Virus record (IMG/VR): IMGVR_UViG_3300046007_014014
Coordinates: 1 to 25,374 of that record
Strand: one strand, 5' to 3'
Length of the DNA: 25,374 bases
Origin: a virus
Shown: positions 12,263 to 18,840 of the stretch, in pieces
Layout of the letters: each line of letters opens with the position of its first letter
Numbering within the stretch: position 1 is the first letter of the stretch
Translations under genes and position numbers: made by a program
Notes under the pieces: generated by a model
Database searches by the model: none
Told to the model about the DNA's origin: nothing
Seen by the model: the letters and a program-made list of their open reading frames with translations, nothing else

Positions 12263-13153
12263 ATGTCGGACCTCATCTCCCAGTACCTCAGTGACATCTC
12301 CCGGCATCCGATCCTCTCGCGCGAAGCCCAGCTCCGTCACGCCTATCGCATCCGCGCATGGGTCGACTACACCCCACCCGGCTCCACCGAGCCCGACCGC
12401 TCCGCCGCCCCCGCTCACATTGCACGCCCCGGCAAGCGCTCCCTGGACATCATGGTGCGAACCAACCTGCGCTTAGTTGTCCACCTCGCCAAGCGCTATC
12501 AGAACCGAGGCCTCGAACTCAGCGATCTGATCCAGGAAGGCAGCCTCGGTCTCATCCGAGGCATCGAGCTCTTTGACCCAACCCGCGGATACGCCTTCAG
12601 CACATACAGCTATTGGTGGATCCGCCAATCTATTTCACGCGCAATCTATAACTCCTCCCGCACAATACGGCTACCAATAAACGTGCAGGATCTTTCTACC
12701 AAGATCAAGCGCGCCATGCACACTCTGACTGCCTCTTACGGCAGACCCCCCTCCATCGATGAGCTCAGCACCGAGCTCGAGCTTCCCCCTGAGCGCATCA
12801 CCGAGACCTTGATCAGCTGCACCATTACCAGCTGCACCTCCATTGACGCCCTATGTCAGCTCTCTGATGCCCCCATCTCCGAGGTACTCAGCTCTGACAA
12901 CCCGACCCCGTCAGAAAGCCCAGAACTCACCGTATCCCTCATCGAGCGCGAAGAGCTTCTACAAAAAGCCCTCGCGACCCTTGACCCTACGCAACTCCTT
13001 GTGGTGCAAGCGATCCACTTTGAGCAACGCAGCCGCCACGAGCTATCCGACGAGCTCGGTATATCCCGCTATTGCATCTCATCGATCTACAAAAAAGCTA
13101 TGCACAAGCTAAGAGTAGAGCTCACTTATAACTGGGATGCGTTTAACGAGTGA
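12263..13153 (+). CDS. RNA polymerase sigma factor (sigma70 group 2-like)
   Basis: 296 residues. Region 1.2: ISQYLSDISRHPILSREAQL. Region 2: TNLRLVVHLAKRYQNRGLEL, DLIQEGSLGLIRGIELFDP and YAFSTYSYWWIRQSISRAI, nearly canonical for cyanobacterial SigA/B-type factors, so core binding and -10 recognition should be kept. Region 3: TIRLPINVQDLSTKIKRA. Region 4.2: SRHELSDELGISRYCISSIY then KKAMHKLR; the recognition helix, normally TRERVRQIE, is strongly changed. Region 1.1 is missing, as in group 2 and 3 factors. A linker of extra residues (~30-60) separates regions 1.2 and 2. Last gene of the operon from 9968; it meets a minus-strand HNH gene one base later. Probably directs phage middle or late transcription. 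Confidence 0.9.
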   Translation: MSDLISQYLSDISRHPILSREAQLRHAYRIRAWVDYTPPGSTEPDRSAAPAHIARPGKRSLDIMVRTNLRLVVHLAKRYQNRGLELSDLIQEGSLGLIRGIELFDPTRGYAFSTYSYWWIRQSISRAIYNSSRTIRLPINVQDLSTKIKRAMHTLTASYGRPPSIDELSTELELPPERITETLISCTITSCTSIDALCQLSDAPISEVLSSDNPTPSESPELTVSLIEREELLQKALATLDPTQLLVVQAIHFEQRSRHELSDELGISRYCISSIYKKAMHKLRVELTYNWDAFNE

Positions 13154-13154
13154 G

Positions 13155-13802
13155 CTACCAGACAGTAAATTCTTCTACTTCTATGCCCTCCATAGCAAAA
13201 GCGTATACACCTGTGTGCTTACAGCGGTATATACGCTGATAGATAGTGGAGTAATTTAGTCCTACTTCTTTGCATAAGCTCTTAGCGCTATACAGTATTC
13301 CCTGGTATAAGTACATGGTTTTAGTTACGTTACCCACTACAGGTCTTTTACTACGTAGTATCCTAGATACAGCTATGCGCACTGTTTGTTCCTGTGGGGA
13401 TACGTAGTCTTTATTCTGTCTGCTCTTAGCTACTCCGCTTTCATCCCGTCCGTTATCATCTTGCCATCCTAGCGCTAGTTCTTCTTTTCCTATGTGTCGG
13501 ACAACCATACTACCTGGATTTTGACCGGTTTTTAAGTAGTACGCAATCCTGTGTGCGTAAAATACTCCATGCCCCCGCACGGACACTAACCATTTTGCTC
13601 CGTTTTTTGAACCAGCTGGTTCACCTATTTTAGCTTTACCATTTTTACTAGCAACTTTCCATACAAGGCCCGAAGGCGAGGTACTAGATAGCTCGAGCAG
13701 ATCTTCAACTATTGGTGGAATGGGGCGTGGAGCGCCATTCCTGTTGAGCGCGTAGTGCACATCGGTCAGCGGAAGGCAGCGCTGGTATGTCTGAGCAGGC
13801 AT
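13155..13802 (-). CDS. HNH/AP2-type homing endonuclease-like protein, catalytic site degenerate
   Basis: 215 residues from the ATG at 13802 (a TTG at 13826 would add eight). SPSGLVWKVASKNGKAKIGE, KWLVSVRGHGVFYAHRIAYY and KTGQNPGSMVVRHIG follow the layout of HNH_3-type free-standing endonucleases, where the last part normally reads xxxDHxNxxxxDNR. Here it is RHIGKEELALGWQDDNGRDE, so the second HNH half is altered and activity is doubtful. The C-terminal part (SAKLCKEVGLNYSTIYQRI-like, YSAKSLCKEVGLNYSTIYQR) is a NUMOD/HTH-type DNA-binding segment. The gene is far more AT-rich and TA-rich than its neighbours and faces the opposite way, consistent with recent insertion. Confidence 0.65.
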   Translation of the reverse strand: MPAQTYQRCLPLTDVHYALNRNGAPRPIPPIVEDLLELSSTSPSGLVWKVASKNGKAKIGEPAGSKNGAKWLVSVRGHGVFYAHRIAYYLKTGQNPGSMVVRHIGKEELALGWQDDNGRDESGVAKSRQNKDYVSPQEQTVRIAVSRILRSKRPVVGNVTKTMYLYQGILYSAKSLCKEVGLNYSTIYQRIYRCKHTGVYAFAMEGIEVEEFTVW

Positions 13803-13845
13803 ACAGGTCTCTGAGGTACCCCACAAGCATACCCCCTACAACTTT

Positions 13846-13853
13846 TATTTATA
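13846..13853 (-). promoter_or_regulatory. TATAAATA box upstream of the HNH-like gene
   Basis: On the minus strand the octamer TATAAATA lies 44 nt before the ATG at 13802 in an AT-rich patch. It is the T4-type late promoter consensus and also passes as a plain -10 box. No good -35 is seen. Confidence 0.4.
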
Positions 13854-13920
13854 TACAGTTTTTCTAGCCCAGGATGTGACATATCCCCCTCTAGCCCAGT
13901 CTCACTGCGACGCAGGGCTG

Positions 13921-13978
13921 GACTCATGTCCCTCAGGTGCGACGCATGAGACTCATGTCCCTCAGGTGCGACGCATGA
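13921..13978. repeat. Perfect 29-bp tandem duplication
   Basis: Two identical, directly adjacent 29-bp units (13921-13949 and 13950-13978), each beginning GACTCATGTCC and ending GCGACGCATGA; the first nine bases of a third unit's border (GACTCACTG-like) follow. The unit contains TGAGACTCA and GCGACGCATGAGAC. The latter 14-mer also occurs, inverted, in the primase repeat region at 6612-6625. A further CTAGCCCAG repeat (13864 and 13891) lies just to the left. Confidence 0.85.
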
Positions 13979-13994
13979 GACTCACTGGGGTAGC

Positions 13995-14023
13995 TTGACG
14001 GCCGCGCGGTGCCGTGCCAGACT
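13995..14023 (+). promoter_or_regulatory. Promoter P1 of a three-promoter array
   Basis: TTGACG at 13995-14000, 17-bp spacer, CAGACT at 14018-14023 preceded by CCGTGC. The same GCTTGAC...CGTGC arrangement recurs in P2 and P3. It is immediately followed by a terminator-like hairpin. Confidence 0.5.
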
Positions 14024-14029
14024 GACCTC

Positions 14030-14055
14030 ACGCGCGCACATCATGCGCGTTTTCG
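14030..14055 (+). terminator. Terminator-like hairpin just after P1
   Basis: ACGCGC / GCGCGT with a nine-base loop and a following TTTCG. It begins about seven bases after the -10 of P1, so a P1 transcript would be only ~25-30 nt unless the hairpin is bypassed. Confidence 0.5.
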
Positions 14056-14064
14056 TCTTCCTAG

Positions 14065-14086
14065 GCAACCCTCCCTAGCGGGTTGC
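14065..14086 (+). other. Hairpin abutting promoter P2
   Basis: Perfect arms GCAACCC / GGGTTGC (7 bp) with an 8-base loop end on the base before TTGACG of P2. The same arms occur at 1163-1187. It may isolate P2 from upstream transcription or be part of a short RNA. Confidence 0.5.
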
Positions 14087-14116
14087 TTGACGGATTGGCG
14101 GACCCCGTGCAATACT
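14087..14116 (+). promoter_or_regulatory. Promoter P2 of a three-promoter array
   Basis: TTGACG at 14087-14092, 18-bp spacer, AATACT at 14111-14116 preceded by CCGTGC. The left part GGTTGCTTGAC.GAT.GGC is shared almost base for base with P3. The expected transcript immediately enters a long-range 8-bp pairing GCGCAGCC (14130-14137) / GGCTGCGC (14174-14181). Confidence 0.6.
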
Positions 14117-14206
14117 CAAGACATCGGGAGCGCAGCCGCCCCGCGGAGCCTAGGCCTCAGGTCAGCTCCCCATGGCTGCGCACCGGTACCGGCTCCGGCC
14201 GGTTGC

Positions 14207-14236
14207 TTGACAGATCGGCACCCCACGTGCCACACT
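14207..14236 (+). promoter_or_regulatory. Promoter P3, candidate promoter of the structured RNA
   Basis: A consensus TTGACA at 14207-14212, 18-bp spacer, CACACT at 14231-14236 preceded by ACGTGC. Predicted start near 14243. It shares GGTTGCTTGAC and CGTGC with P2. Confidence 0.6.
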
Positions 14237-14242
14237 TCATTC

Positions 14243-14738
14243 AGTTCAGAACCACCAATGCATTAAGCGCAACAGCGCAGCCGATAAAGCGCGGCCGGCC
14301 GGGCGGATCCCGGAGCTATAGCAGCAGTGCGCCCAAACTGACTGGGCGCTAGCTCTTGCACCTCACGGACGGCCTGCTCGGATCACACCGAGCACGAGGA
14401 CCGTCGCCGAGATACCCGAACGCCGTAACAGTTGGCGATAGAGGGTGAGGCGATCAGTACCCGATGGCTGGGGGCAAGCAAGCGAACGCGGAACCTCCTG
14501 CAGGAGGGCGCACTGCATGTGTTTTTACCGATCCCGCTGCTGCAGGGGGATCAACGCTGCTCCCGACAGGGATCACAGCGGGTGCACCGGCCCCTTAACG
14601 CCCGGTCTGCAGATACGCCCATAGGGCAGCCCGCCGCTCCGGCTTCACTAGGACGGCCAAGCCCCGGCACACGGCTCTGCCGGGCACAAACTCTCTCCCC
14701 CAGAAGTTCCCCCTGGCGCGCTGCGTCCGGGGGTCTTT
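14243..14738 (+). ncRNA. Candidate structured non-coding RNA, about 0.5 kb
   Basis: No credible gene exists between 13827 and 14784. From the predicted P3 start to the terminator at 14709-14738 the sequence is packed with helices: GAGCTA (14313) / TAGCTC (14350) extended by GCGCCCA (14329) / TGGGCGC (14343); a three-way arrangement CCTCAC (14361-14366) / GTGAGG (14445-14450) enclosing GACGG/CCGTC with TGCTCGG/CCGAGCA (14375-14394) and CGCC/GGCG (14421-14437); CCTCC-TGCA-GGAGG (14494-14507); GATCCC/GGGATC (14530-14552); CCCGGCA/TGCCGGG (14663-14684). The ORF at 14432-14809 in this stretch lacks a start signal, conserved motif or normal composition. No tRNA, tmRNA or RNase P signature is recognised. 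Transcript borders are inference. Confidence 0.5.
14709..14738 (+). terminator. Intrinsic terminator closing the structured region
   Basis: A stem CCCCC-T-GGCG / CGTC-C-GGGGG (nine pairs around one mismatch) with a five-base loop is followed by TCTTTT. It ends 46 nt before the ATG of the next gene. Confidence 0.75.
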
Positions 14739-14760
14739 TGGCTGAGGGACTTACCCCCTC

Positions 14761-14784
14761 CATCCACTCAAGCTGTGATCAGCA
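14761..14784 (+). repeat. 24-bp leader repeat, copy 1
   Basis: CATCCACTCAAGCTGTGA followed by TCAGCA lies directly before the ATG of the 14784 gene. The same 24 bases, with one change, occur before the gene at 16031. Copy 1's last base is the A of the start codon. No Shine-Dalgarno core is inside. Confidence 0.8.
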
Positions 14785-15065
14785 TGTACTTTCAGCATCT
14801 TTGCGCTAGTAACGATTCCAACGGGAATCCGCGCCGTTTGTACGTCCTCGTTGATGAGGAACTCTCTGTAGCCGCCCGTGTGGCCGCATGGGACGAGGGC
14901 CACGCCGGCCACCTTGCTGTGCCTGGTATCTGGCGCGAATGCGCTTACCTCGCCAAACGTATGGACATAACCGTGTCCCTCTACAACGAGCTGCGCCGCG
15001 ACCTCCCCAGCCCTAAGTGGGCTCACGAGGTGCCCGGCTTTTCTCATCTTCGCGAGCTCGTCTGA
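14784..15065 (+). CDS. Hypothetical protein
   Basis: 93 residues from the ATG at 14784 (MYFQHLCASNDSNGNPRRLY). VLVDEELSVAARVAAWDEGH and an MDITVSLYNELRRDLPSP segment follow. Alpha/beta in character, no recognised motif. I prefer this ATG to the GTG nine bases upstream because the latter lies inside the 24-bp leader repeat. First gene after the structured region and the start of the right-hand accessory operon. Confidence 0.7.
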   Translation: MYFQHLCASNDSNGNPRRLYVLVDEELSVAARVAAWDEGHAGHLAVPGIWRECAYLAKRMDITVSLYNELRRDLPSPKWAHEVPGFSHLRELV

Positions 15066-16001: not shown

Positions 16002-16025
16002 CATCCACTCAAGCTGTGACCAGCA
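16002..16025 (+). repeat. 24-bp leader repeat, copy 2
   Basis: Identical to 14761-14784 at 23 of 24 positions (T to C at one base). It ends five bases before the ATG at 16031. A GGGCGC-CTCT-GCGCC hairpin lies just upstream (15985-16000), so both copies follow a stem-loop. Confidence 0.8.
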
Positions 16026-16030
16026 CAACC

Positions 16031-17881: not shown

Positions 17882-17988
17882 TGCGCCGCTTGCTCCTCTC
17901 CTTCGCAGCCGCCGCGCTCTGCACCCCCGCGCAGGCCCGCACCGTCACCGCCACGGGTACAATGGGTTGGTTGCATGAAGAGCCTTGA
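17881..17988 (+). pseudogene. 5' fragment of an interrupted secreted double-psi barrel gene
   Basis: Encodes a clear signal peptide (MRRLLLSFAAAALCTPAQA) followed by RTVTA, then leaves the gene's sense after 24 codons and stops with TGA at 17986-17988. The same reading frame resumes 208 codons later at 18559 with REVTASVYDSWYHG. The original gene would have been a ~110-residue secreted protein. The stop overlaps the endonuclease start as TTGA, so the endonuclease may be translated by coupling from this fragment. Confidence 0.7.
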
Positions 17989-18563
17989 CCGAGGAATGGA
18001 AGCCTGTCCCGCTTGAGGGCTACTGTCACCTCTACTTGGTTTCCAGCCTGGGGCGCATCAAATCCCTCGATCGCCAGGTCGTCGAGAAGACAGGCTTTAT
18101 GCGCCTACACAAGGGAAAGCTGCTCACTCCAAAGAAGACCGGAGCATACCTGGGCGTTTCTTTCTTCGACGGTGTGAGCAGCAAACGCTTCTACATCCAC
18201 CGACTGGTGGCAATGGCGTTCATCCAGAACCCGTTCAACAAGCAGTTCGTAAATCACCTCAACTTTGACCACCGTGACAATCGTGCAGAAAATCTGGAAT
18301 GGGTCACTCCAAAAGAAAACACTGCCTGGAGCGCAGCTGCTGGGCGGCTCAAAAGCGGTGAAGTCCCGCGCGGAGCCGAATGCCAGCGCAGCAAACTCAA
18401 CGATGAAATGGTCCGCGAAATGCGCCTCACTTGGAAACCAGGCGCATCAATGCAGGAGCTTGCTCGTCAGCACGAAATCACGCCGGCGGCTATTTACAAG
18501 ATTCTTCGCGGCAGCAGTTGGAAGCACGTGGAGCCTCCTGTTGCCGTCAACTGGGCACGCTAG
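17985..18563 (+). CDS. HNH homing endonuclease (NUMOD4-HNH-HTH), inserted in a host gene
   Basis: 192 residues from a TTG. NUMOD4-like start EEWKPVPLEGYCHLYLVSSL with GRIKSLDR, then HNH_3: YIHRLVAMAFIQNPFN, QFVNHLNFDHRDNRAENLEW; the H...NH...N set is intact. A C-terminal HTH (MQELARQHEITPAAIYKILR) should recognise DNA. This is the I-HmuI-like arrangement. Only ~30 nt before and none after the ORF remain in the insert, so there is no room for a group I intron core; it is a free-standing type insertion. Lower GC than both flanks. A TACAAT box at 17957-17962 may be its own -10. Confidence 0.88.
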   Translation: MTEEWKPVPLEGYCHLYLVSSLGRIKSLDRQVVEKTGFMRLHKGKLLTPKKTGAYLGVSFFDGVSSKRFYIHRLVAMAFIQNPFNKQFVNHLNFDHRDNRAENLEWVTPKENTAWSAAAGRLKSGEVPRGAECQRSKLNDEMVREMRLTWKPGASMQELARQHEITPAAIYKILRGSSWKHVEPPVAVNWAR

Positions 18564-18825
18564 AGAAGTAACAGCTTCTGTTTACGACTCCTGGTACCAC
18601 GGCCGCACCACCTACTGCGGCGACGTCTACCGCCACTGGGAAACCTCCGCCGCCCACCCCTGGCTCCCCTGCGGCACCCGAGTGCGCGTCTCCCACCGAG
18701 GCCGCACCCTCACGGTGCCCATCACCGACCGCTGCGACTGCGCAAGTTTGGATCTCAGCGGCGGCGCCGCCTACCGCCTAGGCGTCCCCCTAGACGGCAT
18801 CGCCTCCGTGCACATCTCTTACTGA
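18541..18825 (+). pseudogene. 3' part of the interrupted gene: 3D/RlpA-like double-psi barrel domain
   Basis: The frame encodes AREVTASVYDSWYHGRTTYC, then HPWLPCGTRVRVSHRGRTLT and VPITDRCDCASLDLSGGAAY, the hallmarks of RlpA-like/3D-domain proteins (a conserved T-x-T-W/Y-Y front, PCGTxVRV, and a D-R-x-D/C...DLS end), which bind or act on glycans. It has no ATG; a TTG at 18541 inside the endonuclease's end would give PSTGHA before the domain, resembling a crude replacement of a signal-peptide end. Whether it is expressed, and exported, is open. The first ~30 bases after the junction use AT-rich codons (aga gaa gta aca gct) unlike the rest of the exon. Confidence 0.7.
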
Positions 18826-18840
18826 GTCTCATGAGTCTCA
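18824..18840 (+). promoter_or_regulatory. Tandem GAGTCTCA site
   Basis: GAGTCTCAT and GAGTCTCAC are arranged as two direct 9-base units across the stop codon of the barrel gene and the ATG of a 20-codon ORF. The AGTCTCA heptamer recurs in pairs at other gene borders. Confidence 0.35.

Follow-up and report, generated by a model that had tools for sequence, protein, structure and literature searches.

A conserved cyanophage locus predicted to make an exchangeable structured RNA from stacked promoters

Behind a phage sigma factor gene, the viral DNA analysed here (25,374 nucleotides, positions 1 to 25,374 of IMG/VR record IMGVR_UViG_3300046007_014014, hereafter the window) carries three related tandem promoters, P1 to P3, followed by RNA structures. 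Our preferred reading, to which we give a probability of about 0.6, is that this is a conserved cyanophage RNA-production locus, in which stacked promoters would serve a structured RNA of ~500 nt with a swappable body. Most likely the stacked promoters are strong ones that serve structured RNA, above all the RNA from P3, with both strength and transcripts being predicted. The main features of the window are as follows.

12263-13153, plus strand: phage sigma gene with sigma-70 regions 1.2, 2, 3 and 4, directly upstream of the array
13921-13984: TGAGACTCA palindromes upstream of P1, partly within a 29-bp tandem repeat (D3)
13995-14023, plus strand: promoter P1, TTGACG-N14-TGC-CAGACT, spacing 17, TGC extended -10 (alignment A3)
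14030-14050, plus strand: P1 hairpin at the predicted P1 start, then TTTT (scan, fold and conservation of CACGCGCGCACATCATGCGCGTTT)
14087-14116, plus strand: promoter P2, TTGACG-N15-TGC-AATACT, spacing 18, TGC extended -10 (alignment A1)
14123-14187, plus strand: P2 RNA structure, from the predicted P2 start onward (fold, and covariation together with 14188-14203)
14188-14203, plus strand: GC hairpin ending three bases 5' of the P3 -35
14207-14236, plus strand: promoter P3, TTGACA-N15-TGC-CACACT, spacing 18, TGC extended -10 (alignment A2)
14243-14741, plus strand: P3 RNA, type A cassette, a predicted ~500-nt structured RNA (z -2.5, covariation)
14258-14266, plus strand: start-stop minigene ATG CAT TAA, ~15 nt past the predicted P3 start
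14700-14741, plus strand: terminator hairpin with TCTTTT (fold z -4.3), nearly invariant across RNA types
14769-14786, plus strand: conserved small dyad CAAGCTGTGATCAGCATG at the start codon that first follows the terminator, with the same location in relatives

The promoter array and the phage sigma gene

All three promoters of the original prediction are present where it placed them, sharing GCTTGAC and CGTGC at a spacing of 17-18 bp. Their -35 elements begin at 13995, 14087 and 14207, which puts P1 92 bp from P2 and P2 120 bp from P3. Shuffles and a matrix scan led us to reject chance similarity among them: GCTTGAC..CGTGC occurs three times in the intergenic region and in none of 2000 dinucleotide shuffles of that region, and TTGAC-N13-15-GTGC[AC]A has three copies there against a shuffle mean of 0.001. 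A pattern search found no copies of the motif in the window other than P1-P3. In the window, and equally in three longer related contigs (G001, G002 and G007; 39, 46 and 66 kb), a matrix trained on 66 array promoters gathered by pattern gave P1-P3 the three highest scores, 22-26 against 19 or less for every other site. In that matrix, conservation at the positions that the gathering pattern itself required follows from the choice of sites; the column-wise alignments A1-A3 show the same conservation.

The TTGAC -35 and the 17-18 bp spacing found throughout the arrays mark these as sigma-70-type promoters. The -10 hexamers of the 66 array promoters have A at position 2, T at position 6 and usually C as the fifth base, with TGC directly 5' of the hexamer, and their first base is C or A, not the consensus T. 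Because these hexamers are unusual, a plain consensus scan (9-of-12) picks up P2 only, and the missing first T counts against assuming that P1-P3 are strong.

Relatives were fetched from IMG/VR with the upstream sigma protein (12263-13153) as the query, and further arrays by scanning IMG/VR for the P1 hairpin and for the terminator; all of the records are metagenomic fragments. Most relatives have the three-promoter array straight after the phage sigma gene, and alignment of the DNA 3' of that gene gives one layout from 100% down to ~48% sigma identity: an AT-rich tail, the TGAGACTCA palindromes, P1, its hairpin, P2, the two-part hairpin, P3, the long RNA, the terminator and the next gene. The spacers between -35 and TGC drift among relatives, while TTGAC, TGC and the -10 A and T are unchanged. 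P1 and P2 are 89-130 bp apart, and P2 and P3 mostly 118-125 bp (95-97 bp in L037 and L039). A distant sigma clade (L040, L120, L130, L132, L133 and L136) has fewer detectable promoters, with TAGGTT as the -10. No array turned up among isolated phages, among bacterial genomes or in the single plasmid test when these were searched with specific pieces and patterns, and the terminase family PF20441 had no match in the relatives. The locus, which would be a phage RNA locus so far undescribed, was seen in dozens of uncultured cyanophage contigs.

Copy-number changes among related phages, proposed earlier as a check on duplication, do occur, the number of promoters sometimes being two or four (four in L023). 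In L124, L125, L126 and L134, the P2 and P3 of one genome agree at 81-94% in their variable parts, versus 50% between genomes, which indicates that promoter units duplicate or are homogenised. The block shared by P2 and P3 in the window, put at ~20 bp in the original prediction, extends over 39 nt at 77% identity; the duplication read from it is seen in relatives but not within the window. There, P2 and P3 are 55% alike outside the motif, against a background of 50% +/- 8%, so a recent duplication is invisible, and we rejected reading one from the window alone.

The sigma protein matches Sigma70_r2 (4.7e-21) and r4 (2.3e-11) in Pfam. Its closest cellular relatives, at 32-56% identity, are almost all cyanobacterial, and the host is therefore probably a cyanobacterium. 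The sigma gene lies upstream of every checked array for which upstream DNA was at hand. Between it and the array, the window and some relatives have an HNH-type endonuclease gene (13155-13826, minus strand), which is missing from that place in L009, L011, L013 and L017; since it is present in some relatives and missing in others, it is likely a mobile insertion. A second open reading frame (17985-18563, plus strand) resembles an HNH/NUMOD-type homing endonuclease by eye.

P1-P3 may be read by the phage's own sigma and not by the host sigma, which would make the locus a sigma-dependent RNA module. We rate this a little short of an even chance, and it is compatible with the RNA-production reading. 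The constant adjacency of sigma gene and array argues for it, as do the -10s without a first T, apart from TAGGTT in the distant clade (L040, L120, L132 and L136). In addition, the host-type segment IRLPVHITEKL, after region 2.4, becomes IRLP[IV]N... in the array phages, so that Asn replaces the His of cellular cyanobacterial sigmas, which corresponds to a residue that contacts the extended -10 in E. coli. However, TTGACA with TGn and A-11/T-7 should suit the host RNA polymerase too, and four contigs contain no other site of the motif, leaving the phage sigma no further targets of this type. The Asn replacement makes the phage sigma a candidate reader, while the lack of other sites keeps the host RNA polymerase equally possible.

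Upstream of P1, the TGAGACTCA palindromes are predicted to be possible regulator-binding sites. TGAGWCTCA occurs at 13947 and 13976, and CATGAGAC.CA, 11-12 bp 5' of the P1 -35, is invariant or nearly so in 21 relatives. The window has a perfect 29-bp tandem repeat at 13921-13978, and the aligned relatives are without a second perfect copy. At 18823-18840, just past the end of an open reading frame, TGAGTCTCA palindromes similar to the ones 5' of P1 form another pair (TGAGTCTCATGAGTCTCA), and such a pair also occurs at a similar distance in L013. A replication origin, with repeated TGAGACTCA and a primer RNA, would account for the repeats at 13921-13984 and for an AT-rich stretch at 13840-13875, but GC skew does not reverse at the site and the promoter and RNA features would be left unexplained. 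We consider an origin extremely improbable.

RNA structure behind P1 and P2

The terminator-like stem that had been proposed after P1 is real (-10.7 kcal/mol, z -2.8). It is weak in L037 and L039 and nearly invariant in most other relatives, so covariation tells little about it. Behind P2, where an 8-bp long-range pairing had been proposed, there is indeed structure but of another size, namely a two-part structure of 29 pairs at 14123-14203. Twelve of these 29 consensus pairs are doubly changed, 96% of cells are paired, and the covariation score was reached by none of 500 shuffles, with slid controls far lower. In helix 5, the hairpin at 14188-14203, 7-8 of 19 relatives show A-U/C-G and G-C/C-G swaps. 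The predicted P2 transcript starts with a conserved RNA structure, and the predicted P1 transcript with a hairpin. The proposal that P1 and P2 yield separate finished small RNAs found no support, as the P1 hairpin would stop transcription ~25 nt from the start, and the hairpins 5' of P3 are without a proper U-run.

A strongly constrained structured RNA directly 3' of a phage promoter recalls HK022 put, which also lies directly behind early phage promoters and which, acting as RNA alone during early phage transcription, suppresses pausing and termination (PMC9378689). The P2 hairpins could likewise be a cis-acting antiterminator that works on the polymerase transcribing them. Unlike in HK022, however, a third promoter lies downstream of the structured element, and transcripts from P3 would lack it; we find this reading very unlikely.

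The predicted P3 RNA, its start-stop pair and its exchangeable body

The large structured region foreseen after P3 is borne out by seven relatives, in which 32 of the 138 consensus pairs of the type A RNA are doubly compensated; none of 500 shuffles matched the covariation score. Since the fold was derived from the same alignment, the percentage paired is biased, and the double changes and slid controls are the stronger evidence. By covariation, the predicted P3 transcript is a structured non-coding RNA with a conserved fold. The original prediction missed what would be the main product, this ~500-nt RNA with its own terminator and conserved start-stop pair.

No Rfam family matched the P3 RNA at the gathering threshold or at a relaxed E-value; the only relaxed match in the window region, PVT1_5 (E 0.93), was far under its gathering score and was discarded as meaningless. 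The P3 RNA resembles GOLLD and ROOL in being a large phage-borne RNA with conserved structure. It does not match their family models, and differs from them in having several alternative bodies between constant ends and no tRNA genes nearby (neither tRNA nor tmRNA was found near the array).

The P3 RNAs form at least five groups with little in common beyond their ends.

Group A: window, L005, L016, L134, L135, L122
Group B: L003, L011, L013, L032, L033
Group C: L015, L024, L120, L130, L132, L136
Group D: L023, L124, L125
Group E: L025, L026
Listed beside these groups: L019, L126

The terminator is common to cassettes that are otherwise unalignable. Between the window (A) and L003 (B) the sigma protein is 100% identical, yet only ~11% of the RNA aligns, whereas the RNAs of L003 and L033 (both B) are ~93% identical and the L033 sigma is 64% identical to that of the window. 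Because sigma identity and RNA identity disagree in this manner, we conclude from the alignments that the RNA body is exchanged between phages while its flanks stay. Such exchange suggests a role under diversifying pressure, for example in coping with the host. Searching with a covariance model built on the core of type A recovered type A members only, with a weak in-place match in L037 (E 0.54). L037 (4729-5171) and L039 are distant relatives with the array and yet other RNA bodies; the RNA of L039 ends in the tRNA T-arm-like GGGGGTTCAAGTCCCCC, where ARAGORN calls no tRNA.

At a nearly constant distance 3' of the last promoter, ATG-NNN-stop or ATG-stop is found in 34 of 35 arrays (L126 being the exception), compared with 1.1% of equally long random windows, although the arrays are homologous and the 34 are not independent cases. 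What is conserved is the two-codon minigene form as such, ATG, at most one codon, and a stop. Elsewhere than in the window the second codon is CAC, CGT, CGC, CCT, AGT or GAT, all three stops (TAA, TAG and TGA) are used, and in L120-type arrays TAA or TGA directly follows the ATG. A54, T55, G56 and T60 are invariant in alignment A2, where, 3' of the -10, no column is invariant except those of the ATG, the first T of the stop and one additional G. Which residue is encoded (His, Arg, Pro, Ser or Asp) seems to be without importance, and changing stop codons with a variable second codon are the pattern that would be expected of a selected start-stop. A Shine-Dalgarno sequence is absent before most of the pairs, with AGGAG-like sequences in only a few arrays (L019, L037), which weighs against assuming that the pair is translated.

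The known two-codon minigenes axe-txe mg2, the EHEC LEE1 leader and lambda bar have the same make-up of ATG, one codon and stop. Such minigenes act in cis on their mRNA and, when overexpressed, deplete tRNA; axe-txe mg2 is reported to boost expression in cis, possibly by shielding the mRNA from endonuclease (PMC8708949). In contrast to these cases, the minigene here heads a long structured RNA with no close downstream gene, and some lineages have the stop directly after the ATG. Apparent selection for a start-stop pair at the start of a non-coding RNA would make this an unusual case.

Early genes or an RNA product

Small protein genes lie 3' of the terminator, and it may be these that the promoters in fact serve, which is a point against the RNA-production reading. 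The array would then be an early-gene stack like A1-A3 of T7, serving the small genes to the right, with the RNA as their 5' leader and the terminator overridden by attenuator control or antitermination. T7 has its host-RNAP promoters A1, A2 and A3 at its left end; as here, they are tandem, sigma-70-type, on one strand and apparently the sole such cluster in the genome scanned, and their spacing is ~125 bp. The array was likewise the sole such cluster in the genomes that we scanned, and the small genes are on the same strand and differ among relatives, as early phage genes often do. Right behind the terminator there is also a conserved start-codon element, the dyad CAAGCTGTGA[TC]CAGC, which stands before or at a start codon at 14769-14786 and at 16010-16027 (plus strand; two in the window versus 0.07 expected) and may be a translation-start element.

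However, between the promoters and these genes stands an intrinsic terminator that is strong and nearly invariant, covariation across the whole ~500 nt goes far beyond the needs of a leader, and swapping of the RNA cassette does not follow the sigma gene. In T7, early genes are transcribed from these promoters as long mRNAs; in the array, RNA structure follows each promoter within a few bases, and the last promoter is predicted to yield a structured RNA that ends at a terminator and carries a start-stop pair. An early-gene stack is in our judgement rather unlikely.

If the locus is instead devoted to RNA production, its tandem sigma-70-type promoters, three or sometimes two or four, would fire in one direction, and stacking would raise initiation so that the P3 RNA accumulates. 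Longer isoforms from P1 and P2, reading through their hairpins, would accumulate too. The 5' stems, with a ribosome parked on the start-stop pair, may protect the 5' end of the RNA, and the P3 RNA would act as RNA. Conservation, copy number and covariation uphold the original view of a duplicated promoter array with structured RNAs as opposed to an ordinary leader; nothing shows the timing that a timed promoter stack, its other suggestion, would involve. A bolder proposal, which we think rather improbable, is a new class of phage RNA with a dedicated promoter stack, a start-stop that holds or recycles ribosomes, a swappable body and action in trans on the host early in infection, by ribosome or tRNA capture or as a decoy against defence.

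The conserved recipe consists of a promoter stack, structured 5' RNAs, a start-stop codon pair, an exchangeable RNA body and a constant terminator. Should phages make the RNA in large amounts, it would be a clear target for studies of host takeover or defence in cyanophages.
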